The translations under genes and the position numbers were made by a program. From IMG/VR virus record IMGVR_UViG_3300035698_004965, positions 1 through 23,354 of that record: DNA of 23,354 bases; one strand, given 5' to 3'. The notes under the pieces are model-generated. The model ran no database searches, was not told where the DNA came from, and saw nothing but the letters and a program-made list of their open reading frames with translations. This stretch comes from a virus. Below are positions 1,719 to 22,699 of this stretch, one piece after another (position 1 is the first letter of the stretch; every line of letters begins with the position of its first letter).

Positions 1719-2008
1719 TGGAAGAAAAGCCGATCAACAAGAGTGGCATGGTGTGTCCGTTGTTTCGCAAGCCAACGGCAAAGGTGTGTCACACATGCGA
1801 GCTTTACATGAAGGTTGTAACCGTGACCGCCGACAAGATGCAGACCGAAAAGTACCATTGCGCCTACACGGTCACGGCGGCGATGGCGATTGACAATATC
1901 CGGACTACTCAAGCTGTCGGGGCTGAGGTTGCACGCCACAACAACGAGTTCATGGCACTGGTCGGGCACCCCAACGGGCACCCTGATGCTAAACAACTTA
2001 CCCCGTGA
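1718..2008 (+). CDS. Small Cys-containing phage protein, possible metal-binding
   Basis: A 96-residue protein whose ATG overlaps the previous stop (TAATG at 1716-1720). It has four cysteines arranged as C-P-L-F, then C-x-x-C (HTCEL), then YHC, close to residues 13, 24, 27 and 48, followed by a helical part containing IRTTQAVGAEV and ARHNNEF. A CPLFRKP start, a second Cys group and a C-terminal helix match a type of small conserved phage protein that I recall only as hypothetical; zinc binding is an inference from the cysteines. It is the last gene of the GC-rich cassette. Its stop codon TGA lies inside one of the dispersed TACC-N6-GGTA palindromes (1998-2013), whose right half provides the ribosome binding site of the next gene. 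Confidence 0.65.
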   Translation: MEEKPINKSGMVCPLFRKPTAKVCHTCELYMKVVTVTADKMQTEKYHCAYTVTAAMAIDNIRTTQAVGAEVARHNNEFMALVGHPNGHPDAKQLTP

Positions 2009-2013
2009 GGTAA
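1998..2013. repeat. Dispersed palindrome site 1
   Basis: TTACC-CCGTGA-GGTAA, 5-bp arms. It contains the TGA stop of the 1718-2008 gene and supplies GAGG of the ribosome binding site for the collar fibre gene at 2018. Confidence 0.85.
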
Positions 2014-2017
2014 CACC

Positions 2018-2833: not shown

Positions 2834-2836
2834 CCA

Positions 2837-3076
2837 ATGCCAAAGACACCCAAGCCAGCTTTGATTGACTATGAAACCATAGAAAACATGGGCGGTAATG
2901 ATGTTGTTCGTGCAATGGTTAGAGACTACATTATGGCTAAACGAAAAACTTCAAGTATAGAAGGCGCAGCAGCCCTAACAGCCGACCCTATTATTGTACA
3001 AATAGTAGACGGTGGGTCAAAAGGGGTGTATAAGGTTGTAAACATTACCAGTGATAGGATAGATGGATATGACTAG
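2837..3076 (+). CDS. Small hypothetical protein upstream of endolysin
   Basis: A 79-residue protein starting 3 bases after the collar fibre stop, with GGGAG at 2823-2827 as ribosome binding site. I do not recognise a family. The N-terminal half is charged and probably helical (NDVVRAMVRDYIMAKRK); the second half is beta-like (PIIVQIVDGG, then GVYKVVNITSD). No signal peptide, membrane segment or cysteine is visible. Its last 14 bases overlap the first codons of the endolysin gene, so the two are probably translated together. It could be a fibre accessory or a lysis-region protein. Confidence 0.55.
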   Translation: MPKTPKPALIDYETIENMGGNDVVRAMVRDYIMAKRKTSSIEGAAALTADPIIVQIVDGGSKGVYKVVNITSDRIDGYD

Positions 3077-4064
3077 TTTTTACTCGCCGGAAACACTTAT
3101 AGCTATAGCTGGTGAGGGTTCTAGGAAATACATCAGCAATGTCAATTCAGTTGCTAATGGGTTAGCAAACCATGCATCTGAATTTGGACTAGATAGGGCA
3201 CACCGTTTGGCCCACTATTTTTCACAGGTTATCCACGAAAGTGGTGGGTTTAGGTATGACCGGGAAGTTTGGGGTCCAACCGCTGCCCAAAACAGATATG
3301 ATATTCGCACTGATTTGGGGAATACACCACAGCGCGATGGAGACGGTAAAAAATACGCCGGACATGGGCCTATACAGGTAACAGGCAAGTATAACACCAC
3401 TAATTTTTATAAGTGGTGTTTGGCTACTTTCCCGGACATGGAAGTACCACATTTTGTTGACAGCCCCTATCTTATAAACACTGACCCTTGGGAGTTTATG
3501 TCAACAGTTTGGTACTGGGGTGTGGGCAATCCAACGGGTAAATCCCTAAATCTGTACTGTGATGTAAACAATATTGAAATGGTGACCCGACGCATAAATG
3601 GTGGGCTTAATGGTTACCAAGACCGTATCATAAAATACAATAGGGCGGGCCTATACCTACTCGGGTATAAACTTGAGGAAGGTGTTATAAGCAGATTTCA
3701 GAGGGATGTTGGGTTTACTGGTAACAATGTTGATGGTGTGGCTGGCCCAAAAACACGGGAAGCCATACATCAAGAACTTTTGAAGTTACCTGCACAAGTA
3801 ACCTCACAGACAAGCCCACAGGTAACTACTGGGGCTACTGGGGCTACTGGGGCTACTGGGGCTACTGGGACTACTGGTGCGTCGGAAACAGCTACGGTTG
3901 GTGCAGTGGTAACTGTTGGTGCAGCAATTGTAACTGGTGGTGGTGTGGCATACACAGCATCACCAAGAATAGCTGTAGTGTTTACCGCCATCATTGTTTT
4001 GGTTGCTGTGGTTGTTGGTGGGTTTTTGATTTTAAAAAAATATCGCAATAAAGGTAAAAAGTAA
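3063..4064 (+). CDS. GH19-type endolysin with PG-binding motif and C-terminal membrane anchor
   Basis: A 333-residue peptidoglycan hydrolase. Residues 1-200 follow the glycoside hydrolase 19 pattern: VIHESGGF with likely catalytic E59, then REVW with E68, then YAGHGPIQVTGKYN near 98-111, and RRINGGLNGYQDR near 176-187. Residues 208-236 (ISRFQRDVGF to GPKTREAI) resemble a short peptidoglycan-binding domain. A (GAT)n low-complexity linker covers about 257-272, followed by two hydrophobic segments (about 276-298 and 302-324) and a basic end (KKYRNKGKK). Most phage GH19 lysins stop after the catalytic or binding domain, so the C-terminal anchor is unusual. ATG 3063 overlaps the preceding gene; ATG 3069 is an alternative start. 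Family call strong, topology inferred. Confidence 0.9.
   Translation: MDMTSFYSPETLIAIAGEGSRKYISNVNSVANGLANHASEFGLDRAHRLAHYFSQVIHESGGFRYDREVWGPTAAQNRYDIRTDLGNTPQRDGDGKKYAGHGPIQVTGKYNTTNFYKWCLATFPDMEVPHFVDSPYLINTDPWEFMSTVWYWGVGNPTGKSLNLYCDVNNIEMVTRRINGGLNGYQDRIIKYNRAGLYLLGYKLEEGVISRFQRDVGFTGNNVDGVAGPKTREAIHQELLKLPAQVTSQTSPQVTTGATGATGATGATGTTGASETATVGAVVTVGAAIVTGGGVAYTASPRIAVVFTAIIVLVAVVVGGFLILKKYRNKGKK
3652..3669. repeat. Dispersed palindrome site 2
   Basis: TATACC-TACTCG-GGTATA, 6-bp arms with the variant outer pair T-A in place of the usual TT/AA, inside the endolysin gene and in a codon phase different from the majority. Confidence 0.75.
3825..3878 (+). repeat. Tandem 9-bp repeat coding Gly-Ala-Thr linker
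   Basis: Four perfect copies of GCTACTGGG lie at 3834-3869, with degenerate copies on both sides. They encode the GATGAT linker between the endolysin cell-wall region and its hydrophobic C-terminus. Copy number is likely to vary by slippage. Confidence 0.9.
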
Positions 4065-4065
4065 A

Positions 4066-4482
4066 ATGCTTGGTGTATTTGGAAGGATAATAGGAAAACA
4101 GGTTAAGGGTAAAGTCATGCGGAACGCAAAAGAAAAGATTGTAGAAGCCAGTAAGAATGTAGTTAAAGAGGTTCTCAAAGAGGAACTTGGCCATAGCCTG
4201 TCTGCTTCAAGTGAAGCGGTAAATCGCATGGCAAACAACGCGGCCACAAAACTGGCAAATGACCCCGTGGTAGCAAATATGACCAATAGTGAACCATGGT
4301 ATATGTCCAACATTACCCGTGGTGCTATTACCGGGTTTATAACCGCAGTATCAGTGCTGGGGTTCGCGGTTGTTGAAGGTTCTGTTTCATCGGAGCTTTT
4401 CATATCATCAATATCTGGCATGGTAACTAGTGCTTTTGTTATTTATGGCAGGTGGTACGCAAGCAAACCCGTTGGAAGCTAA
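4066..4482 (+). CDS. Putative holin-like membrane protein
   Basis: A 138-residue protein beginning one base after the endolysin stop, with AAAGG about 12 bases upstream. Residues 1-60 are a charged amphipathic helix rich in Lys and Glu, residues 60-80 are polar, and two hydrophobic segments follow (about 86-104, GAITGFITAVSVLGFAVV, and 111-128, LFISSISGMVTSAFVIYG) with a short basic tail. Small size, two membrane segments and adjacency to the endolysin point to a holin or other lysis membrane protein; there is partial resemblance to GTA-type holins. No family can be named with certainty. Confidence 0.6.
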   Translation: MLGVFGRIIGKQVKGKVMRNAKEKIVEASKNVVKEVLKEELGHSLSASSEAVNRMANNAATKLANDPVVANMTNSEPWYMSNITRGAITGFITAVSVLGFAVVEGSVSSELFISSISGMVTSAFVIYGRWYASKPVGS

Positions 4483-4487
4483 ATACT

Positions 4488-5251: not shown

Positions 5252-5262
5252 GATATGAAACA

Positions 5263-5766
5263 ATGCCAGAAATGCCAATCAAACAGGATGCCCCTGTTAC
5301 GACTGAAGAAAATAACCCGGAACTTCAGAACCAGAACCCAAACATCGTAAATCCCGATGCTCTAAGCACCGATGCTTTTGGTGGGCTTAACGATGAGCTT
5401 AACGATGAGCTTAACGCTGAACTTAATGGGGCTGCTTCCCCGTTCATCAATATCATTGATAACCAGAAGCCCAATACCCCGGTAGGTAAGTCGGACGCAA
5501 CATTTGTCGAGGATGCCCCATCGCCCGAACAGTTTGACAAAGACGACCCCCTTGGAATGAAAAATTTCAATGTGGAACGTGAGAAGTTGTTTGCACAACA
5601 GCGCCAGCAGCCGCAGGAAGAAACTCCCGTGCCGACACCAGCACCAACACCGACAGTGGCGCGTTCATTCCAAGAGCTTGGTGCCAGTTTTGTCAATCCA
5701 AAGACGCAGGCTGAAATGCGCGCTGGGCGCAAAGTCCTCATGCTTAGGAACCCTCATTTGAGGTAA
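5263..5766 (+). CDS. Low-complexity hypothetical protein of the virion region
   Basis: A 167-residue protein, mostly predicted to be disordered: rich in Asn, Pro, Gln, Glu and Asp, with three tandem copies of an LNDE/LNAE unit around residues 42-55 and a Pro/Thr stretch (PTPAPTPT) near 125. The last 25 residues (KTQAEMRAGRKVLMLRNPHLR) are basic and helical. It lies 8 bases before the 591-residue tail protein, so it may be a small virion or assembly protein. Phage scaffolds and connectors can look like this, but no specific family is recognised. Confidence 0.55.
   Translation: MPEMPIKQDAPVTTEENNPELQNQNPNIVNPDALSTDAFGGLNDELNDELNAELNGAASPFINIIDNQKPNTPVGKSDATFVEDAPSPEQFDKDDPLGMKNFNVEREKLFAQQRQQPQEETPVPTPAPTPTVARSFQELGASFVNPKTQAEMRAGRKVLMLRNPHLR
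5386..5421 (+). repeat. Tandem 12-bp repeat coding LNDE units
   Basis: Two perfect copies of CTTAACGATGAG and a third with two changes lie in tandem in frame within the low-complexity protein. They encode acidic, probably helical units. Confidence 0.85.
5475..5488. repeat. Dispersed palindrome site 3
   Basis: TACC-CCGGTA-GGTA, 4-bp arms, in the low-complexity protein gene; reads N-T-P-V-G-K. Confidence 0.75.
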
Positions 5767-5773
5767 TGCAACG

Positions 5774-7549
5774 ATGGTTGCTATTGAACTAGCACCGTTT
5801 GGTGGAATGTTGCCAGCAGTAGATGATACCCTACTGCTGGCAAACTCCGCTGCCGATGCATCAAATTGTAACTTATTTTCGGGTGCCCTCATTGGGCTTC
5901 CGACACCTATCAATTTGCACACTCTGTTGTCGTCCGGGTCTACCAAGGTATACCGCATACCCGCGACATATATTGACCCATCATATTTATTTGAGTCAAC
6001 ATGGTTGGAATTTGCCAATAAAGATACCGATGTAATACGGTCACCAGTAATAACTGATACATATGACAGGTACTATTGGTGTTCATCTACACTTTCACCA
6101 CGGTACAATACAAAAGCGCGCATTGATGCATCTGAAAACGAACTCTTGCTGGGTATTGAAAAGCCCGGTGCAATTTCAATAAATGTTACCGGGTCCGGGG
6201 TAGCATCAAACGTAACCCGCTCATATGTGATAACCCATGTAACGACGTATGGTGAGGAAGGCCCACCCAGTGACCCTGTTGTAGACACGGACAAGGCCGA
6301 TAACACATGGACAATTACATTTCCGGCTGTAGCAGCCGATGATAAAGATGGGACAGACCGGATACTAGCTACAGTCCGTGTGTACCGCACAATTGTTGGA
6401 ACATCTACATACTTCCTTGTGGCTGAAGTACCCATAGCAGATGCAGATTACGATGACACAATAGCGGACTCAGATATATCCAGTGGCACGCAATTAGCGA
6501 GCCAATTTTGGACTGCCCCACCCACCGACCTTGCGGGTTTTCTTATGATGCCCAATGGTATGTTGGCTGGGTGGAAAAACAATGAACTGTGGTTTTCAGT
6601 ACCATACCGCCCACATGCTTGGCCTGTGCCATATGTAAAGACAGTTGAATACCCAATTGTGGGTATGGGCATTGTAAACCAAACACTGGTTGTATGCACA
6701 CAGGGGTATCCAGTTACCGCATCAGGTACGTTACCCCAGTATATAACTATAAGCAGGCTTACCAATTTGGAGCCATGCATATCCAGAGGTTCTATAATAT
6801 CAACACCACAAGGTGTTTTTTATGCATCACCAAACGGATTAGTTCTTGTAAATCCGGGTAGGGCTGAGAACGTAACCAAGAACATCATAACCAAAGATCG
6901 TTGGCAATCTCTTACTCAACTTACCCAGTTACGGTCTGGTAGGTTTGGTGCACTGTATTATGCTTTTGGTACATCTAGAACTGGCGTGTTTCAGGATGAT
7001 ATTGTGCAAACTGATGCATTCAGTCAGGATGATACAGCGGGTGCCAAGCTTGGTGTTCTTATTGACCCCAATGACCAGAGAGTAGCTTTTGTAAGGCTAA
7101 CTAGTGAACTTGAAACAATAAACATAATGAATGACCCATGGTCGGGTGAATTATTTATAGTACGTGATGGTGGGGTATTTTACCTAAATCAGAGTATTGA
7201 AGAACCATACTTTGAAAGCTATCTGTGGAAATCCAAGCGCTTTCATATGGATGAAAAAACAAATTTAGGGGCTGCAAAGGTATTTTTTACCGTGCCAGAC
7301 ACAACCCCGGAACAGAACCCAGTACCTGTGGCCGATATAGATCAAACTCTACAAAGTGACCAGTATGGGCTTTTGCGTGTATATGCGGATGATGTTCTAA
7401 AAAGTACACATGAAATACGTACTTCTGGTAAAATTATAAAGCTTCCCGGTGGCTTCAAAGCAGACTATTACCAGTTTGAAATAGAAGCCCGTGTACGCAT
7501 AAAAAATTTCCAAGTTGCCTCTACTTCCAAGGAGCTTTCCAGTGTCTAG
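5774..7549 (+). CDS. Tail structural protein, nozzle / DNA stabilisation-like
   Basis: A 591-residue, almost entirely beta-rich protein with few charged clusters. It starts MVAIELAPFGGMLPAVDDTLL, typical of podovirus tail proteins that begin by listing a set of variable positions. Residues 140-225 look like a fibronectin-type insert (YVITHVTTYGEEGPPSDP, then RVYRTI and YFLVAEVP). Residues 265-400 carry FSVPYRPHAWP, VKTVEYPIVGMG, TQGYPV and FYASPNGLVLV, a pattern I associate with packaged-DNA stabilisation or tail-nozzle proteins with a propeller-like fold. In podovirus order such a protein precedes the ejection proteins, as here. The exact homologue (P22 gp10-like or T7 gp12-like) cannot be decided by eye. 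Its stop overlaps the next gene by 8 bases. Confidence 0.72.
   Translation: MVAIELAPFGGMLPAVDDTLLLANSAADASNCNLFSGALIGLPTPINLHTLLSSGSTKVYRIPATYIDPSYLFESTWLEFANKDTDVIRSPVITDTYDRYYWCSSTLSPRYNTKARIDASENELLLGIEKPGAISINVTGSGVASNVTRSYVITHVTTYGEEGPPSDPVVDTDKADNTWTITFPAVAADDKDGTDRILATVRVYRTIVGTSTYFLVAEVPIADADYDDTIADSDISSGTQLASQFWTAPPTDLAGFLMMPNGMLAGWKNNELWFSVPYRPHAWPVPYVKTVEYPIVGMGIVNQTLVVCTQGYPVTASGTLPQYITISRLTNLEPCISRGSIISTPQGVFYASPNGLVLVNPGRAENVTKNIITKDRWQSLTQLTQLRSGRFGALYYAFGTSRTGVFQDDIVQTDAFSQDDTAGAKLGVLIDPNDQRVAFVRLTSELETINIMNDPWSGELFIVRDGGVFYLNQSIEEPYFESYLWKSKRFHMDEKTNLGAAKVFFTVPDTTPEQNPVPVADIDQTLQSDQYGLLRVYADDVLKSTHEIRTSGKIIKLPGGFKADYYQFEIEARVRIKNFQVASTSKELSSV
6715..6728. repeat. Dispersed palindrome site 4
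   Basis: TACC-GCATCA-GGTA in the 591-residue tail protein gene; reads V-T-A-S-G-T. It is the only site whose spacer does not begin with C or T. Confidence 0.7.
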
Positions 7550-7736
7550 TTTTCCCTCCATCCCAGAACCAGTGCCGACCACTGATAGCTTGTATGAAAC
7601 AATTGCAATACTGAAACAGGTTGTTGAGTTGCTTACACGGCAGCGGGCTGACACTGATAATTTGGGGGCTGTGACTTATAGCAGCCTAGTTGAAATGGGG
7701 ATTATAACCGTGGATCAAATACCATCAAATGAGTAG
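7542..7736 (+). CDS. Small helical protein, unknown function
   Basis: A 64-residue protein. GTG 7542 is chosen because AAGGAG (7529-7534) lies 7 bases upstream; an in-frame ATG at 7515 would place the start deep inside the previous gene. It starts with a Pro-rich stretch (SFPSIPEPVPT), continues with a short amphipathic helix (YETIAILKQVVELLTRQ) and ends with a beta-like SSLVEMGIITVDQIP segment. Small proteins of this build occur near the ejection genes of podoviruses, but I cannot assign a role. Its stop overlaps the following ATG (ATGAGTAG). Confidence 0.6.
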   Translation: MSSFPSIPEPVPTTDSLYETIAILKQVVELLTRQRADTDNLGAVTYSSLVEMGIITVDQIPSNE

Positions 7737-8205
7737 GTTCACCGCCAACGATTTGGATGTTGGTAACAAAGCAGCAGCCATACTGGTATGTGCAGCAGCG
7801 GCATGTACATTTGATCCTAGGTATGATGTATGCCTGTCACGTACTATACAGGGTTGTACAGTTGGTGGTGTTATAATAAAAGACTACAACGGTGCATCAG
7901 TTAACATGCACGTAGCGGGGTTTTGTGCTGGGTGGCTTACTAGGAAATTCATATGGTTTGTGTTCCACTACATATTTGAACAGTTGGGTTGCAACGTTGT
8001 TTTAGTAACAATACCAGAGGCCAACACAAAAAGCCTTGAATTTACATCAAAAATAGGGTTTAAACAGGTAACCATAATCCCCGGTGCAGTAAAGTCTGGC
8101 GGTCTTGTCTATTTAACCATGTACAAAAAAGATTGTAGGTGGTTGGATTACAAAAGCCTGTTGTTACCTAGCAAGGTAAGTCATAAGGATACCCACCATG
8201 GGTAA
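7729..8205 (+). CDS. GNAT-like acetyltransferase
   Basis: A 158-residue protein. The C-terminal two thirds fit a GNAT fold: a strand with GGVIIKDYNG, MHVAG, then RKFIWFVFHYIFEQLGCNVVLVTIPEANTKSLEFTSKIGFKQV, the usual helix-strand-helix with an Asn/Ser turn before the final GF. It then closes with GLVYLTMYKKDCRWL. GNAT proteins transfer an acetyl group from acetyl-CoA to an amine. A similar gene often sits beside internal virion genes in alphaproteobacterial podoviruses (recalled, not searched), so it may modify a virion or host protein; the substrate is unknown. The typical QxxGxG/A acetyl-CoA loop is not clear, so activity is uncertain. It overlaps the previous gene by 8 bases and the next by 8. 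Confidence 0.72.
   Translation: MSRFTANDLDVGNKAAAILVCAAAACTFDPRYDVCLSRTIQGCTVGGVIIKDYNGASVNMHVAGFCAGWLTRKFIWFVFHYIFEQLGCNVVLVTIPEANTKSLEFTSKIGFKQVTIIPGAVKSGGLVYLTMYKKDCRWLDYKSLLLPSKVSHKDTHHG
8164..8179. repeat. Dispersed palindrome site 5
   Basis: TTACC-TAGCAA-GGTAA (6 bp if the inner T-A pair is counted), at the end of the acetyltransferase gene, 18 bases before the start of the 8198 gene. Its spacer is identical to that of site 19. Confidence 0.85.
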
Positions 8206-9253: not shown

Positions 9254-11488
9254 ATGTCTTTTGGTCAGGAATTAAAAGATTTTACCAGTGGTTTATCCAC
9301 TGGGTACAACCTTATCCAAGGCCCTATGGATAAGCGCGAGCGTGAGGCAAAGCTTGATTACATGGATGTTCAAAAGGATTACATGAACACCCAAGCTGCC
9401 AACATGCGTGGTGAGTATGAAACTGATTTGGATAGGTCACAGCAAAGATCGGCCATCCAAGTCAACCAAGCAAACATTGCAAAATCTATGGGTGGTGATC
9501 CAGAGGCTGCTGCTGCACGGCGTTTTATGGGTGGCCGTACAAGTGCTATACCATCTGGTGAAACCGAGGGTGACACAGCCGCTGCTGGGGTTACCCCGAC
9601 AGGTATAGCTAGGTTTGATGCTGTACCCGATGAACTAAGACCACACTTTGAGGCTACAGCAAAAAAGTATAATGTCCCGGTTGAGTTGCTAATCCGGCAG
9701 GCTGGGATAGAAAGTGATGGATTTAGCCCGGATGTGATTTCTGGTGAGCGGAAAAGCAATAAGGGTGCTATTGGCATATCTCAGATTATGCCTGCTACTG
9801 CTGGGGATTTGGGGGTTGATCCTACAGACCCGGTGCAGAGTATTGATGGGCAAGGCCGTTACATGCGCCAATTGTTGGATATGTATGACCAAGACCCAAC
9901 GAAGGCATTGGCGGCTTATAACTGGGGCATGGGCAACGTAAACAAGTGGGTTAAGAATGGTGCCAACCCACAAAATATGCCATCTGAAACCAGACAATAC
10001 CTTGCCTATGCCAAGACTGGCATAAACTACGATGACGTGTTTGATGCTGTACTGGCTGGGTCAGAGGGAGCTATGGAATTGGTTGGTATGGGTGGGCAAG
10101 CCAGTGGTGGTTCCGCCATACCAGATACCCTTGATGATGCAACAGAAGACCAGTTGGACCAGTTGATCCAAGGGTACGGCGGGGCACCGCAGGATGTTAT
10201 GGATGAAATGTATGCGGTCATTGATCCTAATGGCAAAATGCCAGAAGATGAACGGATCATGCGTGCTTTGAGTTCTTCATGGGAGTTTTATAACAGCAGG
10301 GGTGAAACCAATAAAGCAAAGGCGGCGGCTGTAAGCATTGTGCAACGTCAAAGGCTTGTAGCATCTAGGTATGCAGCTTTTGCAAAAGCTGCTGCTACAG
10401 GTGGTGACATGGACGAAGCCACTTCAGCCATTGTAAAGGCGTATGCCAATGTCCCAGATGGTAGGAGCCTTGCTGTACAGAAAGATGACGATGGTAAGTA
10501 TGTCATTCAGTATTATGACAGCGTTACAGAAATGCCCCTTGGTGAGCAAGAGGTAAAAACCCCATCTGAATGGGGTGCTGAAATTATGGGGGTATCTTCT
10601 ACGGCGTTTGATAGTTTGATACTTGATGCGGCTGGTATGCGTGAGGATACTGGTTCTCAGGCGTTCAAGGATGTTTCTTCTAAATTGGATGGAAAGGGGC
10701 TAGTTGAACCACCTACTGGTGCGGAGCTTGCTGAAATGTCAGCAGATGAACAAGAACGAATTTCTGGATTGATAGCACAGAACAATGCTCCGTTCTTGAC
10801 TTCACAGCCATCAATGAAGCCATCGGATGCTGTTACAAATGATGAAGTGTCCAAGCAGGCCGTGGATAATGTTATATCCCGCGTAATGGGTGATGGTGGA
10901 GAACCACTACCTGAAAACCTGCATGCAGAACTTACATCACTGACTAATAAGATATTTTCCAGTAATGGACAAGCAATACCACCAGATGATGCAGCCGTTA
11001 TTGCTTGGGATATGACACAGGTTGACCCCGGCAACCCGGATGCAGCACCGTTCACACTTGAAGCAGCACCGGGCACCGATGGGCTTGTACAGCTTACCTT
11101 GGGAGGTAAGACTGTGTTAGTTGACGCAGAGACAGTTTCTAGGGCTAGAGTGATATGGGACAAGAACAGGGCAGCGGTAAATAAAGATATAGCTGATGGC
11201 AAGGCTAGTGCCGAATGGTGGAAGCGCGCTGGTAAGCTGGTTGATCGTACTGGTGAGGCAATATACGGTGCATTTGTAACTGAACCAACAGATGAAGTGC
11301 TTAAACCAATCCCTGAAGAAGTGCGTAAAGATTACCCAGATAATGCAATGGCCCAGTACGCCGCTGAGTATCAGTATCGTGTTGGTACGATGGGTAAAGA
11401 ACAAGCGGATGCTTGGTTGCGTACTGAAATGGCAAAGTATTCAGATCAGCCAGTACCAGAGCGGTCACAGGCTATTGAATTGAGGTAG
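9254..11488 (+). CDS. Internal virion protein with lytic transglycosylase domain
   Basis: A 744-residue protein. Residues about 118-250 form an SLT-type lytic transglycosylase domain: VPVELLIRQAGIESDGF with likely catalytic E153, GAIGISQIMPATAG at 171-184, and ALAAYNWGMGNV at 218-229. The enzyme would cut glycan strands to open a path for DNA through the cell wall during ejection. The rest, before and after the domain, is mostly helical and acidic, with no further recognised motif; the first 100 residues are coiled-coil like. It is flanked by the other two ejection proteins and probably assembles with them. Start supported by the spacing of 6 bases after the preceding stop. Function strong for the domain, moderate for virion location. 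Confidence 0.88.
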   Translation: MSFGQELKDFTSGLSTGYNLIQGPMDKREREAKLDYMDVQKDYMNTQAANMRGEYETDLDRSQQRSAIQVNQANIAKSMGGDPEAAAARRFMGGRTSAIPSGETEGDTAAAGVTPTGIARFDAVPDELRPHFEATAKKYNVPVELLIRQAGIESDGFSPDVISGERKSNKGAIGISQIMPATAGDLGVDPTDPVQSIDGQGRYMRQLLDMYDQDPTKALAAYNWGMGNVNKWVKNGANPQNMPSETRQYLAYAKTGINYDDVFDAVLAGSEGAMELVGMGGQASGGSAIPDTLDDATEDQLDQLIQGYGGAPQDVMDEMYAVIDPNGKMPEDERIMRALSSSWEFYNSRGETNKAKAAAVSIVQRQRLVASRYAAFAKAAATGGDMDEATSAIVKAYANVPDGRSLAVQKDDDGKYVIQYYDSVTEMPLGEQEVKTPSEWGAEIMGVSSTAFDSLILDAAGMREDTGSQAFKDVSSKLDGKGLVEPPTGAELAEMSADEQERISGLIAQNNAPFLTSQPSMKPSDAVTNDEVSKQAVDNVISRVMGDGGEPLPENLHAELTSLTNKIFSSNGQAIPPDDAAVIAWDMTQVDPGNPDAAPFTLEAAPGTDGLVQLTLGGKTVLVDAETVSRARVIWDKNRAAVNKDIADGKASAEWWKRAGKLVDRTGEAIYGAFVTEPTDEVLKPIPEEVRKDYPDNAMAQYAAEYQYRVGTMGKEQADAWLRTEMAKYSDQPVPERSQAIELR
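9592..9605. repeat. Dispersed palindrome site 6
   Basis: TACC-CCGACA-GGTA in the transglycosylase gene; reads V-T-P-T-G-I. Confidence 0.75.
11093..11110. repeat. Dispersed palindrome site 7
   Basis: CTTACC-TTGGGA-GGTAAG, 6-bp arms (7 with the inner T-A pair), in the transglycosylase gene; reads L-T-L-G-G-K. Confidence 0.85.
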
Positions 11489-11492: not shown

Positions 11493-14400
11493 ATGGCTGA
11501 ATGGTGGCAAACTTCCCGTGTAACTGGAAACCTTGAGGGTCCAGTAGATAGCCACGTTACATGGGGCGACTACTTCACTACATTCGCTGGTGTTGGCTTA
11601 CCCCAGCTAGTATCTGCTATACCCGCTGCAACCCGTGCGTTGACAGATGAAACAACATCTGAATTTGGCCAAATAATAAATGAAGGGTCAAAATTAGCGC
11701 AAGAGGGTTTACACGGTATAGCTGATAGCAACTTTGAGAGTTTGGGCAGGAGCGCACAAAAGCGCTTGGCTGCTGACATTACTAGTCCTGAATTTTGGTC
11801 TGATGACCCAATCAGTTCTATGATGCTCAAATCAACACAAACTGCACCATCAATAATGGCAGCAGCCGTACCAGCTTTTCTGACAAGTGGTGCAATACTG
11901 CCAATTGTCGCTGCTGGTGCTACAGCGGGTGGTATCAGTGCCGCATCTACAGTTGATGAAATATATTCAGCCATAGATGCAATGTCTGATGAAAAGTTAC
12001 AATCAGAAAGCAAGATGTATGCTGATCTCCGTGCTAGTGGCATGGATGAAAAATCAGCACGGGCCAAGCATGCATCAGTTTTAAGGGGCAACCGCCCCCT
12101 AATGCTTATGCTTGTTGGCACAGTAACTGGCATGGTTGGACCCGCTGGACAGATAGCTAAGGCAACCACTGGTGCCAAAGTGGCAGGTGGGGTAACCAAG
12201 CGCGTTGGGAAAGCAGCCGCCGCCGGTGCCGGATCAGAAACAATACAGACAGGTCTTGAAGACTGGTCTGTGCAACAGGGCATGGTTGAAGGTGAGTTAC
12301 AAGAAAGTGTTGACTATGGTCGTGTAGCTAGCAGAGCCATAGAGGGTGGTATCATAGGTGCCATATTGTCTTCACCCACTGGTGTTGCTAATGGTGAACG
12401 CAGAACTACACCGCCGCCCCCTGCTGTGCCCCCGGCTGCTGTGCCCCCGGCTGCTACTTCTACACCACCGGCTCCTGCGGCTCCTATACAACCAACCATA
12501 GTAGATACTATTGCTCCCTCCGAAGTGGAAGCTTTAGCAAATTCAAGTGGTGGCGAGGTTACCCCGGTAGGTATACAGCCACAAACAAATCCAACAGCAG
12601 TTGTTGAAAATCAAGAAACTGGTGGTTTACCAATAGACCCCAATGCCACAAGGAAGCCACCCACAACAGCTTCTAAGGGGGGTACAGCGGACGCTAGCCC
12701 TCCCGCTGGTGGGGATGTACCTGCGGAGGCTAGCGGCCGTCCTGTGGCCCCTGTGGCCCCTGTGGCCCCTGTGGCCCCTGTGGCCCCCGCTATCCCCACC
12801 ACGTCCACAGACATACCCGTAGAGGCTTCGGCTCCTGTTGCCCCTGTGGCCCCTGCGGCTCCAAAACCTGACACTTCTACCCCGGCAGTATCTAAAGCTA
12901 TGGGGGCTTCCAAAGCCCTAAAATCCAAGCGCATGGCTGAAGCTGAAAAAATGAAAGGCCAGCGCAATGCGGGTGAAGTCCGCATCCTTGAGGATTTGAA
13001 CTATGACCCCGAGAAGGCTTCAAAAGCGCATTCGGATAAAATTGCGGCAAACCTTGCAGACCTTGGCACACCAGAGAAAGGTGAGGCTTTTGCTAAAAAG
13101 GGAGCAAAAGCGAAAGAAAAACGTGCGCAAGAAGATGCAGACGCAAAGGTTATCTTTGACAACCTTGCACCAGAAGACGAAGTAATACCCACAACGAAAG
13201 AGGCAAAGAAAAAGCTTTTTGACAGGCTTGAAAATATCCTTTCAGAAGCCAAGGAAAAAGGCATTAAAATACGCAAGCGGGTAACTCTTGAAACATCTAG
13301 TGACCACGCGGTATGGCTACGTGAGGTAGAGACGCTTGCAAACAAAATGCGTGCGGCGGAAAATACTGGTAAGTCAGGACCGCCCATGGATGAAATTTCA
13401 GAATTCATAACTAGGGAAAAGATCGCGGCATCCGATGGCGATTTCAGTGCCATGCGTGAGGGTCGCAAATTAGCTGGTGACCAGCTAAAGAAAATTATGG
13501 GTGACTCAGAGGGGGTTGCTGGCGGGGTAAAAACTGAAGTTGATGAAGATGCAGTTGAACAACCAATGGGTGATACCACGGAAGATTTGCCTTCCGAGGA
13601 ACATAGTGAAAATGATGACATTCAAGCTAGGGGAACTTCAAAAGTAAGCAATAGCTTGTTTGATGAAGAAACTGGATCAAAGGTTACCTCAACAGGTAAG
13701 ACAATTGATGTAGCATCAGTATCCGATGAAGAAAAAGCAGCTATGCTTGCTAGGCTGGCGGGGGCATCAACTAAAGGTTCCGCCCCCGCACCCAAGCCTG
13801 TTCCCAAATCAACACCAAAAGCTGAGAAGATAAAAGAAACATCCAAAAAGCGCAGCGCTGCTAAAGCAGAGGCCAAGCCAGAGGCCAAGCCAGAGGCCAA
13901 GCCAGTTGCTCCAAAACCCGCCCCCGTGCCGAAACATAAGGTGCCAAAACGCAACTCAACAAATTCAGATGTTCTGAAGGCGGCAGGTGCTACTGAAGCT
14001 GATCCAACACCCGAACAAAGACTGTCCGGTGAATACACAAAGGGCACCATTGTTTGGGATGGTCACAATATTGAAATAGAAACAGCAAAAGGCTCTATGC
14101 GGCGTGGTACTAGTCCTGATGGTGATTGGGAAGTACGCATGCCTGTTCACTATGGGGAAATGACAGATACAAAAGGCGTAGATGGTGATGCTATTGATAT
14201 GTTCATTGGTCCAAATATTGAAGCTGCTGAAAATGTATTTGTGATTGACCAGTTCAATATAGAACCACGTAGCTTTGATGAACACAAAGTTCTTATTGGC
14301 TTTGACAATGCAATGGATGCAGTCGAGGCATATGAAAAATCTTTCTCGGATGGTTTAGCTGCTGACCGGGTTGGTGACTTCCGTGTTATGAGCAAGAAAG

Positions 14401-17400
14401 AGTTTGGTGAATGGCTTGATAGCCGTAAGCAGCACACTGACCCTGCTGGTGATCCTGATGTACTTACCCCACCGGGTAATGATGTATTCAGAGCCTCCAT
14501 ACGTGAGAAAAAGGAAGGTGGTACTTCTGATAAAAAAACTGACAAACTAAACAATAAAGAACAATTCTTTAAATACAGCGCAGTTGCAATTGGTAGTGCA
14601 AATGATTTAGTTAGTGATACCATTAACGAGTTTGGTAGTGGTGGGATGTTAGTGCCGTTCAGGGCTATTCTTGGTAGAATAGGGGCACTCACAAAGGATG
14701 TTACTATTTATATAGTTCCAAAGGAACTTACAGGTAAGGCAGCAGCATTTTATAACCTTAACAATGGGTACATTGTGTTGGCTGAGGATGTGTATAATAA
14801 TGGTGGGCAAGATTACGCCCACGTAGTATTGCACGAATTGGTCCATGCAGCTTTTTCAAAAGTGCTGTCAGTTAATATGGATGCAAGGGTAGCACTAGAA
14901 AATATAGCCCGTGAAGCATCTTATGCAATAAACAATACCAATGAGGTATACGCATTTGAAAACCCTGATGAGTTTTTAGCGGAAGCACTAGCTAACAGCA
15001 GCATACAAGAAATATTGATGACTACAGATGCATCAAAAAACCTTGTTGATAGCATGTACAAAATGCGCAGCGGGATACCTAACCGGGTAATTTCATTGTG
15101 GGATACTATTGTTGATACAGTACTACAGGCACTTGGCCTTGGTTTAAAAAATTATACACTTATGGAGGCAATCCTAAATGTATCAGCGAGACTAGATGCG
15201 GATGTTTCAAAGCCGGGGTTTGATCGGCGCATGTCAAAAGATGATATGTCTGAATTAAATTTTGTAGAAACCATTGAAAAAGCATCTACCGCTATTTGGG
15301 CATATGGCAACAGTAACTTTGCCCCACCAGAGGCGGGTAGCAACCTACCCGTACTGCGTGACAAGTTTAACCAGATTATACTTAAAGAAGGAAGGCAAGA
15401 ACAGCGCTCGGTGCCATGGGTACTCAGCCTTACCTCAATGGACTACATCGTAAGAGTGTCAGAGAGGTTCTTCAATAAAGTAAACAACCCAGTCCGCCAA
15501 ATCCATGATGCTATGGAAATGATTAGGACAAAGGGTGATACTTTGTTTGCAAAAAGTGAGCCACTTATCTCCAAGATGTATGAGTTGGAAAAGAAATACC
15601 GCGCTACAGGTGAGTGGGTTAATTTTTCGCAGTTGGTTCACGCCGAAACTACGGCTAATGTGTACGCCGACCGGCCCCTGTCCAACAATAAACACCTTGG
15701 TAAGAATGCCCTACGCGGGGTGTGGGCCAAGGCACGCCATGCTGAGTTGAAGCGCATACACGATGCACTACCCGATGATTTGAAAGCCCTTCGTTCAGAA
15801 GCCGTAACCTTTTTCAGAGACCAACAGAATGCCATGAGCTTGGGCATCATCAAAAACCGGGTGCTTAGGGCACTTGGCATAAATGATGATGCACTGGCAC
15901 AGAGAATTTTTGACAATACGGCTACTGATGCAGATAAGGTAACCCTCGGGGGTGAACACATACTTGAGTTGATCCAAGATGCAAAAGAGTTATCAAAAAT
16001 TGAGGGGCCATATTTCCCCCTCATGCGTCGTGGAAACTTCGTGGTACGTGCAACAGCAATAGTGACCCCACCCCCTGCCGGTGCCAAAGCCCTATCTGCA
16101 AATAGATTTCAGTTCACCGATAGGGCATTGGCTGAAAATTATGTTGGAAGCCAGTCACCCCATACCACACTTAAGAGCATTATTATAAGCTCAGTAACTG
16201 GTGAACAATTTGAGATTACCCCGGCAGGTAAGAAGGTTCGTATATCCGAGAATGATGCGGACGCTATCCGGGTGTATGTAGTGGAAGTGCAAAACCAGCA
16301 TGTGGAATTTTTCAAGACCCAGCGTGAGGCCCTTGAAGCTGCCCATGGCCTAGAGGAAACAGGTGAGTATTCTGAAGTAAAGGGTGCCATCCCTCGCAAG
16401 TATGAGGAAGAAGGTAGGCGTGCTGACATGCTTACCCACCAGATGACAGCGTTGTTGAATGGGCTGAAGCGCCGTAAGGGGTTTCAGGAAATGCACCCTG
16501 TTATGCAGCATGAGCTTGAGATTGCCTTGAATGAGGCAAGCATACGTTATATGGGGTCAACCCGCATACAGTCCCGCCGTCAGCCTCGCCGCAACATAAT
16601 TGGGGCTTCCATGGACTTGACCCAGAACACCCTTGAATACACAAAGTCTGCTTCAAATTACCTCGGTAGGTTAGAATACCAGCCAGCACTTGAAGTTGCA
16701 CTTAAGGAAATGCGGGAGTTAGCCAACGCATCGTATGACAAGCCCGGTACTATGGGGCGTGGTTCTATAGCCAATGAGGTTGAAAGGCGTGCTGATGTTG
16801 GTACAGGGTTCTCCCCGTCCAACCCGTTCCAGCCTGCAATACAGCGCATATTAACGTGGTCGTTCATTGATAAGCTGGCATCACCGGCCTACTCTCTTAT
16901 CAATGCCACCCAGCCAATCATGCTTACCATGCCAGTACTGGCAGCTAGGTACGGCATCGGTCGGTCGTTCAGATTTATGACCAAGGCTTATTCTGACATT
17001 GGGGCTGGTGGCATAGCAAAAAGTGGCATCAAGGATACTTTGGGTAAGATAACCAATCCAACTAATAAACCACAGAGCTATGTGGAGTTTGTTAAAGGAA
17101 GGCTTACAGACACCAATGAAAGGGCTATGGTTGATTGGCTCGTAGAGCGTGGTTTGCTGGACCCGGACGCTGGATTGGAAGTTGAAAGCTTCATCAGGTC
17201 ACGGAGCACTAACACACTCTTTGAGCGCGGTGTAGCGGGAGTTGATAAGGGTGTTGGGTACTTTGAGGGCATAGCACGCCAAATGCCCAAGGCTGTTGAA
17301 ACTATCAACCGTGCAGCTTCTGCACTGGCTGCTTACAGATTGGAGGTTACCCGGTCAGGTAACCATGAAGCTGCGTTGCAGTATGCCCAAGATACAGTTA

Positions 17401-18450: not shown

Positions 18451-18464
18451 TACCCGGCGAGGTA
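18451..18464. repeat. Dispersed palindrome site 14
   Basis: TACC-CGGCGA-GGTA directly after the giant gene's stop; its right half forms the Shine-Dalgarno of the gene at 18469. Confidence 0.8.
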
Positions 18465-18719: not shown

Positions 18720-18971
18720 ATGGCTGATGAAATTTGGAGAACACCTAGCACACAGGTGTACACAAAAATTGTGCCAGTGACCAAGGCTGATGAAGACTTA
18801 CCTGATGGGGTATGCAGGGGCTTGTACATCGGCACCGGTGGCACTCTGACCATCATTGATGCTAGCGGTGGCACCAGATCAATTACAGTTGTTGCTGGTA
18901 GTTTATTGCCATTCGCGGTATTGCAGGTCAAAGATGCTGGTACAGCATCGGCTGTACTTGCATTGTATTAA
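18720..18971 (+). CDS. Spike base-like protein (GTA Rcc01079-type)
   Basis: An 83-residue protein. The order DLPDGVCRGLYIGTGGTLTIIDASGG, then SITVVAGSLLPFAVLQVKDAGTASAVLALY (quoted in pieces: RGLYIGTGG, SITVVAGSLLPF, AGTASAVLALY) fits the small spike base protein family known from the Rhodobacter gene transfer agent and from alphaproteobacterial phages, where it attaches to capsid or spikes. All-beta composition and length agree. GAGG at 18709-18712 lies 7 bases before the ATG, within a near copy of the dispersed palindrome. The assignment rests on pattern recall. Confidence 0.62.
   Translation: MADEIWRTPSTQVYTKIVPVTKADEDLPDGVCRGLYIGTGGTLTIIDASGGTRSITVVAGSLLPFAVLQVKDAGTASAVLALY
18799..18812. 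repeat. Dispersed palindrome site 15
   Basis: TACC-TGATGG-GGTA in the spike base-like gene, minority codon phase (L-P-D-G-V). Confidence 0.7.
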
Positions 18972-18981
18972 GGGGTAAGTT

Positions 18982-19158: not shown

Positions 19159-19160
19159 GA

Positions 19161-19436
19161 ATGCCAAAGAAAGAGGGGGTGCGCGACCCGAAATCGCACC
19201 GCACCCCAGCACAAATAAGAAAAATGGATAGGGGGTACAATACCGAACCCGGCCCGTCAAAGGCCCGCGCCAATAACAACAAAGCTAGGCGCATGCTTGA
19301 GAAGGAAGGCAAGGTGCACAAGGGTGACGGTATGGATGTTAACCACATAAAACCACAAAGGAAGGGCGGATCAAACAAGCGCTCAAACCTTAATGTGGTT
19401 CCAAAATCTAAGAACCGTGGGTGGCGGGACGATTAG
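19161..19436 (+). CDS. HNH-like small nuclease
   Basis: A 91-residue basic protein. The C-terminal half has the HNH pattern MDVNHIKPQRKGGSNKRSNL followed by NVVPKSKNRGW: the D-x-N-H of the first strand, the GG loop, the Asn of the helix, and a final Asn in place of the third His (an H-N-N form). The N-terminal half is Lys/Arg-rich with no zinc-binding cysteines, so it is a minimal form. Phages use HNH proteins in packaging or as free nucleases; which applies here is unknown. It is the last + strand gene before the convergent junction. The start is 2 bases after the previous stop, with AGGA directly before the ATG. Confidence 0.72.
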   Translation: MPKKEGVRDPKSHRTPAQIRKMDRGYNTEPGPSKARANNNKARRMLEKEGKVHKGDGMDVNHIKPQRKGGSNKRSNLNVVPKSKNRGWRDD

Positions 19437-19463
19437 GCCCGATAGGCACATTTGTAGAAATTG

Positions 19464-19497
19464 AATGGGGGCTTACCCAGTCAGGTAAGCCCCCATT
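19464..19497. terminator. Perfect 14-bp-arm hairpin at the convergent junction
   Basis: The arms AATGGGGGCTTACC (19464-19477) and GGTAAGCCCCCATT (19484-19497) are exact reverse complements around a 6-base loop, CAGTCA. It lies in the 74-base gap between the last + strand gene (stop at 19436) and the last - strand gene (stop at 19511), the expected place for a bidirectional terminator. No clear U-run follows on either strand, so factor-independent termination is not certain. Its core is a copy of the dispersed TTACC-N6-GGTAA palindrome. Confidence 0.75.
19473..19488. repeat. Dispersed palindrome site 16
   Basis: TTACC-CAGTCA-GGTAA, the core of the 14-bp-arm hairpin at the convergent junction. 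It is the only copy lying clear of both genes and ribosome binding sites. Confidence 0.9.
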
Positions 19498-19510
19498 AGC
19501 GTCATAGCCG

Positions 19511-19729
19511 TTACTTGCGGGCGGCGGGGGCCGTATTGACCGCCTCCGTGGAAGCAGCGCGCTTCGGAGCCGCTTTAGTGGAAGCTGCCTTCTTCGGAGC
19601 TACCTTCTTCGTATCCGCCTTCGTGGAAGCCGCTTTCTTCGGAGCTACCTTCTTCGTAGCCGCCTTCGTGGAAGCGGCTTTCTTCAGGGCCGTCTTGGTG
19701 GTATTGCCAGTGGCAGGAACTTTTACCAT
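19511..19729 (-). CDS. Histone H1-like Lys/Ala repeat protein
   Basis: A 72-residue protein, extremely rich in Lys, Ala and Thr and with almost no other residue types after the start. It is built from repeats of KKAASTKA and TKKVAPKKAAST, like the C-terminal tails of eukaryotic H1 and of bacterial H1-like proteins. Such tails bind DNA without sequence specificity and condense it. AGGAAAG lies upstream of the ATG and overlaps the stop of the primase gene, so the two form one - strand operon with this gene last. A + strand frame across the same bases is a shadow rich in Ala and Phe. A nucleoid-type or packaging role is inferred. Confidence 0.75.
   Translation of the reverse strand: MVKVPATGNTTKTALKKAASTKAATKKVAPKKAASTKADTKKVAPKKAASTKAAPKRAASTEAVNTAPAARK
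19550..19690 (-). repeat. Imperfect tandem repeats in the H1-like gene
   Basis: The - strand gene repeats units of about 45 bases, visible on the + strand as TTCGTGGAAGC, TTTCTTCGGAGC and TACCTTCTTCGTA in regular order. Each unit encodes KKAAST plus a KKVAP-type segment. Confidence 0.75.
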
Positions 19730-19744
19730 GGGTTGTTTTCTTTC

Positions 19745-22699
19745 CTAGGTTTCATCTATGAAGTTTGAGTGTGGTGTACCTGCAAGATTGATTTCCAACA
19801 GGTACTGCGTAACACCGGCAAACCTCGTACCCGATGCTATGCGGCCATTGATTGTCTTCATCCCAAAGGTTTCGGCCAAAGCCTTTGTAAACAAGTGACG
19901 AGACAACCCCCTATCGGCCAGCCATTCGGACAACCTATAGGAACTTATACGCAGCAATTTGTCATCCACACCAACGTGTACGTGAATGTCATCAAGCCGC
20001 GATGTATCACCAACCTCAACAATAGCCCCCTTGGGTGGCTTTCCTGCTGATATGTGTATGCGGTTGGTAAATATTGTATGGCGTGCCCTGTGTTGGTTAA
20101 GGAACGCCGCAAGGATGTTTGATACATCCAAGTCATCCTTCATGTCAACACCCTTGCTCCCACGGGTTATCCGCATGTTACCCAAGCAGGTAACCAGAAA
20201 TTCCTTTAGAGCAGCTTCATTTATCCGGGTGAGGTTCATTGAATTCATGTATTTTGCGCCCATGGTAAGGCTCGTTATTAGGCCCAGCCAATAGCGCTCG
20301 TCTTTCTGTATCTCTAGCTCTTGTTCAAAAGCCACCATACAGGCGTTAACCTCTTTCTCTACAGCAACAAAATTCTGGCCTAACCACCTAGCATATGCCA
20401 GACCCACCATGCCATAGTTGTCATTCAGTAGGGCAACCTTCCTCTGCGCTGCCGATATTGAAATCTGACCATGCACACCCGGCTTAACCTCATATTCAAA
20501 TATGCGATAGATACCGGCTGTTGTCATCTGTGTTCTAGCAGTTACCCGGTCAAGTATGCTTTCGTTGGATGCTGATACAAGCAACGTTTGCCATGTACCC
20601 ACTTGGCGCTGTTTAGCACGGGCAGTCAGGCGGGATTTTTCTTTACCCAGTGTCATGGCAAAGACAATCCTAACGAAAGTCTTTGTATCTTCCTCTGTTT
20701 TCAATTCGTCCCAGTACAACGGCAGGGAGCGTATTTCACCAATTTTGTTTATAACAGAGTTCTCTGTATCAGACAGCGACTGCATGGCCCGTATGGGGTC
20801 ACCCCATACAGCTTGAGCTATGCGAAGTGCTGTTGACTTGCCAAGCCCGCTTTCCACGGAATACGTAGACATGAGCAAACCAGTTTGGTCTGTGAACCTA
20901 ACGAGAGGTGCTGCAAAAGATGATACTAGGATGGCGTCAAGGTCAGGGCGTTGCTGGTCTGTTATCAGCTTTGCTGCATCAACCCAAGGTAGAAGACTAC
21001 CATTGGGGGCATATTGGGAAGCAATGATTGGGTCTGCATTGGCGGCTGGACGGGGGCCATCAAGTGTCCACACATTGCCACCGTACACAAACCCCTCTAG
21101 CTTGCCACCCTTCATGTTCCACCCAAAAGGTGTGGACGATATGACAGCATGCTTACGCTGCTGTAAAGTCTGTATCCAAGCCATGAGGAATTTTGATACC
21201 TTTTTGAATTCATCAACACCAACCATGAACCCTTGGGCTTGTAGCACCTTTCTCATTTCGGTGCCACCAACTACCTCAAGGTCTAACATGATCTGTGCTA
21301 AATGGCCTTCCTCTGTTGTGGTTGTAAAGTTCAAGCGCCATGGGTTTTTCTGTAGCCATGGATTGACCATTGGGTAGTCACATACCCGAGCTTCGGCAGT
21401 TTCACCGTCCTGTGTGTAAAACACATAATTGATGAAACCTTCTATGTCTCTAGTATAGCCCTGTGGCAAATCTTTTTCAACAAGTGGCTTACCTTGTGAG
21501 GTAAGCATGGGGGGTAGTGGCTTATTGTATTTCTTGGGTGCAAAGTTTAGGGGTGATTTTTTCTCACTAAAATGTGGGCATGCCTTACACCCTTCATACC
21601 CAGCACCGTTTATACTTAAGCAGGACGGCCACCCCAAGTTACGTTCTTCACGTTCTTGTTTCTTTCGGCCATACAACTCGTCAGTGGTAACAGGGCTATA
21701 GTCAGGATGGCCCCGTGCCATAAGATGGGCTAGGGTTGCCCCCTGTGTAGTGAACACTGATATGAGCGTTGTAAGGTTCCATAGCGGGTTGTTGTAATCC
21801 CTGCCCCCGGTAGTTAGGCCATCCTTTATGAACGGGCATTCCGACACGACGCCTGTTATATCAACAGGGCCAACCTTACCCACGCTCATATCCACCCCTG
21901 CCGACATTTCATCATTTACCACTGGGGCTTTGGGGGGTAGGGCCTTGTAATCAAACCCACCTATGAAAGAAGTGTCTCTCCATTTGGCAACACTATCAGC
22001 TATACGATCAAGCCTATAATCAAAACCTGTAGGGTTACCTAGCAAGGTAACCGGCCTTGCATCCGGTAATTTGTAATTGAATGTTCCGGGTATTCTCAAT
22101 AGCCGCACACTGTCTATTGTGCATTGCCCGTCAAACAACATACCACTGTCAGTGGCGGCATTCCTGAAAGAATGCGCTATGGGTTGCCATTCCGGTAGTG
22201 TGAGGGGCCGGTCAACATTCCAATACACATGCATGCCACCACCAGAACCAACTACCATGCTGGGGTTGGGTAACCCGGTGTGCTGTATGAATTTGGCTAG
22301 TGCTTGAACAGCCTCCAATTGGTTATCGTAGCTCTTTTTGTCTTTACCTTTCCAGTCAAGGTCAATAAAGAACGATTTTATATATGCAACGTTAGATTGG
22401 TTACGTTGTGCTGACCAGTATTTATAGTTGCTTTTCTTACCCTGCTTTTCAATTGCATTACGCTGGGAAGACATACAAGCGTATATGTCCCGCCTACCAT
22501 CTTTTTGGGCAAACGTTATTGCACTGATCGCTTCATCCATAGACCGGCATGCGCGTCCGGGAAAGATTGGTTCCTTCCTGTCTTCAGGCTTGAATGTCCA
22601 ATGGACGTTGATAAAGGCCGTACCATGGCCCTCAATAGGCCAAGGCAGAACGGCGGCTAGATATAATTTAGCTTGTGCCAAACTGTCTGCGAATTGCAT
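19745..22699 (-). CDS. Primase-helicase: AEP-type primase fused to DUF927-like ATPase
   Basis: A 984-residue replication protein counted from ATG 22699; an in-frame GTG at 22717 would add six residues. Neither start has a clear binding site. The N-terminal part is an archaeo-eukaryotic-type primase: FFIDLDW (110-116, catalytic D113 and D115), GSGGGMHVYW (152-157 core), and DSVRLLRIPGTFNYK with D196. Cysteines at about 288, 360, 371 and 374 may bind zinc. The C-terminal part is a DUF927/superfamily 3-like helicase ATPase: Walker A ESGLGKST (616-623), Walker B LPLYWDE (659-665). It would unwind the template and synthesise primers for phage DNA replication. It is on the - strand, opposite to the virion genes, as is usual for an early module. 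Confidence 0.88.
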   Translation of the reverse strand: MQFADSLAQAKLYLAAVLPWPIEGHGTAFINVHWTFKPEDRKEPIFPGRACRSMDEAISAITFAQKDGRRDIYACMSSQRNAIEKQGKKSNYKYWSAQRNQSNVAYIKSFFIDLDWKGKDKKSYDNQLEAVQALAKFIQHTGLPNPSMVVGSGGGMHVYWNVDRPLTLPEWQPIAHSFRNAATDSGMLFDGQCTIDSVRLLRIPGTFNYKLPDARPVTLLGNPTGFDYRLDRIADSVAKWRDTSFIGGFDYKALPPKAPVVNDEMSAGVDMSVGKVGPVDITGVVSECPFIKDGLTTGGRDYNNPLWNLTTLISVFTTQGATLAHLMARGHPDYSPVTTDELYGRKKQEREERNLGWPSCLSINGAGYEGCKACPHFSEKKSPLNFAPKKYNKPLPPMLTSQGKPLVEKDLPQGYTRDIEGFINYVFYTQDGETAEARVCDYPMVNPWLQKNPWRLNFTTTTEEGHLAQIMLDLEVVGGTEMRKVLQAQGFMVGVDEFKKVSKFLMAWIQTLQQRKHAVISSTPFGWNMKGGKLEGFVYGGNVWTLDGPRPAANADPIIASQYAPNGSLLPWVDAAKLITDQQRPDLDAILVSSFAAPLVRFTDQTGLLMSTYSVESGLGKSTALRIAQAVWGDPIRAMQSLSDTENSVINKIGEIRSLPLYWDELKTEEDTKTFVRIVFAMTLGKEKSRLTARAKQRQVGTWQTLLVSASNESILDRVTARTQMTTAGIYRIFEYEVKPGVHGQISISAAQRKVALLNDNYGMVGLAYARWLGQNFVAVEKEVNACMVAFEQELEIQKDERYWLGLITSLTMGAKYMNSMNLTRINEAALKEFLVTCLGNMRITRGSKGVDMKDDLDVSNILAAFLNQHRARHTIFTNRIHISAGKPPKGAIVEVGDTSRLDDIHVHVGVDDKLLRISSYRLSEWLADRGLSRHLFTKALAETFGMKTINGRIASGTRFAGVTQYLLEINLAGTPHSNFIDET
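20177..20194. repeat. Dispersed palindrome site 17
   Basis: GTTACC-CAAGCA-GGTAAC, 6-bp arms, in the - strand primase-helicase gene; on the coding strand it reads V-T-C-L-G-N. Confidence 0.85.
21487..21506. repeat. Dispersed palindrome site 18
   Basis: GCTTACC-TTGTGA-GGTAAGC, perfect 7-bp arms (8 with the inner T-A pair), in the - strand primase-helicase gene; reads L-T-S-Q-G-K. Confidence 0.9.
22033..22052. repeat. Dispersed palindrome site 19
   Basis: GGTTACC-TAGCAA-GGTAACC, perfect 7-bp arms, in the - strand primase-helicase gene; reads V-T-L-L-G-N. Its spacer equals that of site 5, 13.9 kb away. Confidence 0.9.

Follow-up and report, generated by a model that had tools for sequence, protein, structure and literature searches.

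Why should one short palindrome recur along a stretch of viral DNA, mostly inside genes? The question is raised by a 23.4-kb record of an uncultured virus (IMG/VR record IMGVR_UViG_3300035698_004965; 23,354 nt, the whole stretch analysed here and hereafter termed the window), which carries tail and internal virion genes, a gene for a 2318-aa protein and a DUF927 primase-helicase gene. An earlier reading made from the letters alone (the sequence-only reading) had listed 19 copies of the dyad TACC-N6-GGTA, and every one of its coordinates was recovered when the window was rescanned. The window represents part of a podovirus lineage with genomes of ~60 kb, and the best overall explanation of the dyads, held at a probability of about 0.55, is that they are stoperator-like dispersed operators of a phage-encoded dimer.

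Dyad numbers and form

The dyads are real and far above chance. The sequence-only reading had put the chance expectation low, and this was borne out by dinucleotide-preserving shuffles of the window, which gave 0.33 copies (standard deviation 0.57, maximum 2). The count expected from tetramer frequencies was 0.90, and a reversed control motif had zero copies in the window. Sixteen of the 19 dyads fall wholly inside genes. The codon-preserving shuffle that had been put forward as a possible refutation was run as synonymous permutation within genes, and it yielded a mean of 1.19 and a maximum of 5 copies over 500 runs, against the 16 coding sites.

Also as described earlier, the arms extend to TTACC-N6-GGTAA in 11 of the 19 dyads and, by pair counts, the spacer begins with C or T in 18/19 and ends with A or G in 19/19. 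The consensus is G-TTACC-Y-N4-R-GGTAA-C, with a spacer of 6 and, in relatives, also of 5. Within the window each of the other spacers from 0 to 20 gave 0-4 copies; for the relatives the notion of a spacer of exactly 6 has to be widened.

The dyad in related phages

The lineage, a family of phages that infect soil bacteria, takes in Rhizobium phages such as RHph_TM29, Bradyrhizobium prophages and hundreds of metagenome contigs. The nearest named relatives of the window are the Rhizobium phages RHph_TM29, TM27A, TM27B and TM3_14A, with 46% identity in the primase and 45% in the internal virion protein. Searches for related loci that started from the primase alone, or from one of the alignments (A4), yielded no loci. 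When conservation in relatives was checked, as had been proposed, dyads were found to be kept in relatives of 38-94% protein identity. RHph_TM29 (60.9 kb) has 43 exact dyads, of which 30 have a spacer of 6 and 13 a spacer of 5; with TTAC-N7/8-GTAA added, making four scan patterns, the count rises to 56 sites in RHph_TM29 and 91 in the relative G002 (58.7 kb). Eighty contigs were also pooled, 79 of them retrieved through capsid-protein homology and one through gene 28 (906 kb, some of it overlapping). In this pool TACC-Nk-GGTA occurs 168 times at k = 6, 72 times at k = 5 and 1-21 times at each other k, and about half of the 80 fetched loci, many of them short, lay below the threshold set for the TACC class.

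Other relatives carry altered forms of the site: TTACTC-N4-GAGTAA in G019, TNACTC in G023 and TACT in L333. G018, whose capsid protein is 72% identical, has GTTNAACC-N-GGTTNAAC at ~14 places, with a top z of 27.8 where ten triplet shuffles reached no more than 9.1. The dyad is lineage-wide, with a specificity that drifts among relatives. TTACC-N6-GGTAA was absent from POI1126, Atu_ph08, PBC5, BcepIL02, Mwe-JY07 and Skulduggery, which have only tail and internal-virion genes in common with the lineage, and the distant relative Rollin also has zero copies. Bcep22-like phages and distant prophages (of Pseudomonas, Salinicola and others) were rejected as carriers, the dyads not being in excess, as were HMO-2011, CRP-235 and HTVC103P, in which the count of a dispersed dyad lay within the shuffle range. 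Another candidate found by its motif, G009, proved to be unrelated: in this AT-rich contig iteron-like copies of GTTACCTGTTTGGGTAAC are clustered within a replication-initiator-like gene (L148 1919-2623) and are probably origin iterons.

DNA or RNA, phage or host

Pairing between the inner Y..R positions does not exceed the chance level (9 observed against 10.1 expected in the window, 40 against 41.8 in G002), so the two halves vary independently, and the lack of covariation leads us to read the dyad as DNA and not RNA. The inner base shows a weak left/right bias. A perfect dyad could make a 5-7 bp stem, as RNA hairpins or terminators would need, but with no covariation at the inner positions, no enrichment of T-tracts beside the dyads and mostly intragenic sites, such a role has a negligible probability. 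Probable repeated terminators also look different, lying with A/T tracts between genes: in Aeromonas phage MQM1 (L284) the palindrome CGGACAnnTGTCCG has 14 near-identical copies, mostly intergenic and with A/T tracts on their flanks, which are probably bidirectional terminators.

Two whole Bradyrhizobium assemblies of 8-9 Mb each were scanned for the TTACC form. The first has six copies, five of them in its phage contig and one in the ~8.6 Mb outside. Bradyrhizobium sp. 139 has nine copies, all nine in its two prophage-bearing contigs. The dyad is phage-specific and nearly absent from host chromosomes. The idea that the sites serve a host protein, be it a global regulator, a nucleoid protein or a CtrA-type factor, draws on the finding that the host regulator CtrA can be used by alphaproteobacterial phages (PMC9437464). 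With zero and one copy outside the phage-bearing contigs of the two assemblies, and with a motif that varies between related phages, this idea is nearly refuted and keeps a very slight probability.

In Bradyrhizobium sp. 139, glyS and a pyruvate-phosphate-dikinase-like gene adjoin the structural half of the phage on one contig. The early half lies on another contig, of 170 kb, with a large serine integrase at its end followed by ordinary chromosomal genes. The two halves would represent one integrated prophage split over two assembly pieces. Tyrosine integrases were found in G003, G014, G015, G017 and G021, so at least some members of the lineage are temperate.

Spacing, turnover and placement of the sites

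The spacing of the dyads in the window is significantly regular, a property that the sequence-only reading had under-stated: the coefficient of variation (CV) of the gaps is 0.36, against 0.93 under random placement (0/2000). The CV is 0.62 in RHph_TM29 and 0.60 in G002 (each 0/2000 random placements), and the gaps in G003, G013, G016 and G020 are more even than random with P values of 0.007-0.043, each calculated per genome and uncorrected for the ten genomes tested. Spacing was thus more even than random in 7/10 genomes, and regularity was not significant in G001, G019 and G027. Across the long genes of the window (5.8-18.4 kb), a stretch picked after the sites had been seen, the CV is 0.25 against 0.87 (0/5000).

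Among 658 comparisons of coding sites, which are not independent of one another, 72 showed the orthologous position retained, against 7.3 expected, and the retained positions are mostly shared by close relatives. With so few positions kept, single sites are lost and gained as density stays. The same low sharing, together with the failure of the synonymous null, led to rejection of common coding ancestry as the cause of the dyads.

In RHph_TM29 most site centres are coding, but 18/56 are non-coding against 10% expected, an enrichment (P 7e-6), and dyads lie in both divergent and both convergent gaps. Its early region is denser, at 759 bp per site against 1534-1947 elsewhere. The densest run of dyads is interleaved with members of one small protein family, which has 13-15 paralogues in RHph_TM29 (L005 21644-25014 and elsewhere) and eight in G002.

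It is tentatively proposed that the even spacing is itself under selection, in which case a phage-encoded dimer would divide the genome into stretches of ~0.6-1.5 kb, either looped or silenced. A separate explanation is architectural: a phage-encoded, sequence-specific nucleoid-like protein would bridge the even dyads and fold the genome for replication or lysogeny, with silencing secondary. The regularity, which holds even within long genes, the density maintained despite positional turnover and the dyads in both convergent gaps of RHph_TM29 all speak for such a protein. A known bridging protein was not found, the denser early region fits regulation too and three of the ten genomes lack significant regularity, so that a primarily architectural function is considered rather unlikely. 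In the favoured reading, with operators dispersed for a dimer that the phage encodes, the regularity of the gaps hints at an architectural role in addition to the silencing or pacing of transcription.

Candidate binding proteins

Lineage-limited core genes were sought by iterated profile search, and two candidates for the dyad-binding protein emerged. Gene 61 (RHph_TM29 34642-34956, 104 aa) sits between the genes for PolA and a RecB-like exonuclease. Its AlphaFold model has a winged helix behind an N-terminal helix (mean predicted local distance difference test score 77, domain 72-94), and the listed PDB fold neighbours are nearly all winged-helix regulators of the MarR, OmpR or ArsR type, the best at E 0.0047 and none reaching E 0.001. 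Profile comparison gave marginal matches to OmpR/PhoB-type domains (PhoB, SaeR, RstA). The product is predicted to be a winged-helix protein, with a helix bundle and a beta-hairpin wing. Gene 61 is present in 9/10 near-complete dyad-bearing genomes, and loci fetched through its homology all carry the dyad or its TACT variant; it was not found in G018, G031 or Rollin. Judged by eye, one position of the recognition helix is D, E or P in the TACC examples and differs in L333 and G019, which have TACT. The model and this distribution point to the gene 61 family as the leading candidate ligand of the dyad.

The second candidate ligand is the product of gene 28 (242 aa), which is present wherever its region was sequenced; its model is all-helical, with no PDB neighbour at E < 0.001. 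Most of the early region is missing from the window, and with it the relatives of gene 28 and gene 61. An XRE/CI-type repressor was rejected as the binder, HTH_3 being found in G019 only.

Partition, a role floated in the sequence-only reading, found no support: ParB_N (PF02195) turned up in G018, which has a different dyad, and in none of the other 13 records, and no centromere-like cluster was seen. In G018 the ParB_N-containing open reading frame (ORF; G018:C1:1354-1581) accompanies the dispersed dyad of that phage, and the two could possibly form a parS-like system. Plasmid RK2 is a ~60-kb replicon. Its KorB operators are, like the dyads, palindromic, and serve long-range silencing. KorB is a ParB-type CTP clamp which, with its partner KorA, silences up to 1.5 kb away (PMC11790492), a reach near the gap sizes seen here. 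A clamp of this kind might load at the dyads and slide to silence or partition the genome; the palindromic, dispersed form of the sites and the presence in G018 of ParB_N and a dispersed dyad of its own speak for it. Unlike KorB and RK2, however, the TACC-dyad members tested yielded no ParB_N, and most dyad-bearing members have the predicted winged-helix protein instead, so that a ParB/KorB-type mechanism is improbable.

The sites could also be Chi-like, nuclease or packaging tags for the enzymes that accompany the lineage, namely those of RecB-like gene 63, VRR-NUC gene 67, SNF2 gene 70 and HNH-like gene 80, and their distribution regardless of gene or strand would fit. Chi-type tags are, however, asymmetric and oriented, and TTACC-N6-GGTAA is lacking in Rollin even though genes 63, 67 and 70 have relatives there; the chance of a tag function is correspondingly small.

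Comparison with known dispersed operators

Dispersed operators are known from few phage systems. Those of phiC31, the conserved inverted repeats, are palindromic repressor sites of a temperate phage, as the dyads may be, but they are less numerous and lie chiefly between genes of the early region, and their repressor is unrelated as far as is known. The sequence-only reading had drawn a comparison with the stoperators of mycobacteriophage L5. Like those of L5 and Bxb1, the dyads represent one short site repeated tens of times through a phage genome, here in a lineage that is partly temperate, with a motif that drifts; unlike them, they are symmetric, mostly inside genes and regularly spaced. 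In Cluster A mycobacteriophages (L5, Bxb1) the stoperator is an asymmetric 13-mer to which a monomer binds; its copies are oriented with transcription and occupy promoters or the short spaces between genes (PMC9283540, PMC6550527), and its motif drifts among these phages (PMC6550527). Asymmetry, orientation and intergenic placement were looked for in the dyads and not found, which places them outside the L5 class. What stood of the proposal of dispersed dimer operators is the more general part, since the half-sites are independent, the sites are kept in relatives and occur in prophages but only very rarely in the chromosomes of the hosts, and a phage-encoded predicted winged-helix protein accompanies them.

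In phage SPbeta the repressor MrpR, which has a tyrosine-recombinase fold, acts at ~10 promoter-region sites termed SPBRE (PMC10516654). SPBRE resembles the dyad as a repeated element at many places of a prophage, served in SPbeta by one master repressor, but differs in its small number, its promoter-region location and the fold of its protein. We know of no description of a dense, symmetric and evenly spaced set of such sites that runs through structural genes and is conserved, with drifting specificity, across a large lineage of environmental phages.

The favoured reading

The dyad is very probably the site of a phage-encoded dimer, and the chance that it serves silencing is put at about even. 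The ligand, presumed to be phage-made, would bind the dyads as double-stranded DNA sites genome-wide. Dimers might form through the separate N-terminal helix of the gene 61 protein, in keeping with half-sites spaced by one helical turn and a tolerance of one base pair; as only the monomer was modelled, dimerisation is our inference. Binding at many sites would block initiation or elongation, or loop the genome at ~0.6-1.5 kb, and the bound dyads would silence, and perhaps fold, a prophage or pace the expression of an incoming phage.

Several observations weigh against dispersed operators, or against gene 61 as their ligand. Regular spacing is not expected of operators and is not explained by them alone, and the dyads differ from L5 stoperators in being symmetric and in lying in the middle of genes and, in RHph_TM29, in the two convergent gaps. 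Neither a tyrosine nor a large serine integrase was found in RHph_TM29 and several relatives, and the retention of the sites in these phages would be left unexplained by a role in lysogeny alone. The dyad is present in G016, where gene 61 was undetected. As the presence and absence of gene 61 track phylogeny, its association with the dyad is weak and suggestive only. Gene 61 lies inside the early operon and not in a typical immunity locus, and the usual targets of OmpR-type domains are direct repeats rather than inverted ones.

Positions of the dyads and other features of the window

The first dyad, of the TTACC/GGTAA form, lies at 1999..2012, at the end of ORF 1718-2008 and in the gap before 2018. 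Dyads of the shorter form TACC-N6-GGTA follow at 3654..3667, within an endolysin-like ORF (3063-4064), at 5475..5488, within ORF 5263-5766, and at 6715..6728, within the internal virion protein ORF (5774-7549). A TTACC/GGTAA dyad is found at 8165..8178, at the 3' end of an acyltransferase-like ORF (7729-8205), and the ORF for an SLT-domain virion protein (9254-11488) holds one dyad of each form, the shorter at 9592..9605 and the longer at 11095..11108.

Six dyads lie within the ORF for the 2318-aa protein (11493-18449): those at 13685..13698, 14465..14478, 16217..16230 and 17348..17361 have the TTACC/GGTAA arms, and those at 12560..12573 and 15076..15089 are TACC-N6-GGTA. Another TACC-N6-GGTA dyad (18451..18464) stands directly past the stop codon. 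Residues 841-975 of the 2318-aa protein form an inorganic-pyrophosphatase-like domain (PF18823), and the C-terminal part of the protein can be aligned to DarB-like giant virion proteins.

Beyond it, a TACC-N6-GGTA dyad lies within ORF 18720-18971 (18799..18812) and a TTACC/GGTAA dyad in the convergent gap 19437-19744 (19474..19487). This gap, which separates ORF 19161-19436 from the primase gene, also contains tandem 15/30/45-bp repeats at 19540-19701. The last three dyads, all TTACC/GGTAA, lie within the DUF927 primase-helicase-like ORF on the minus strand (19745-22717), at 20179..20192, 21490..21503 and 22036..22049, and the position homologous to the last is also occupied in RHph_TM29 and G002. 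The RHph_TM29 relative of this primase is labelled a putative integrase in GenBank, a label that looks wrong. At 22773-23354 on the minus strand, tandem 12-bp repeats code for a QPVQQP-type stretch that runs past the end of the window and by its position is perhaps the C-terminal part of a relative of TM29 gene 74.

Implications for the phage family

Natural variation within this family allows one to read both the code by which a phage DNA-binding protein recognises its sites and the purpose that their genome-wide spacing serves, and isolates suited to testing exist, namely the Rhizobium phages RHph_TM29 and its kin and Bradyrhizobium strains that carry relatives. If the even spacing is indeed under selection, the dyads would amount to a sequence-specific viral chromatin, with sites that are written in coding sequence and re-created once lost.

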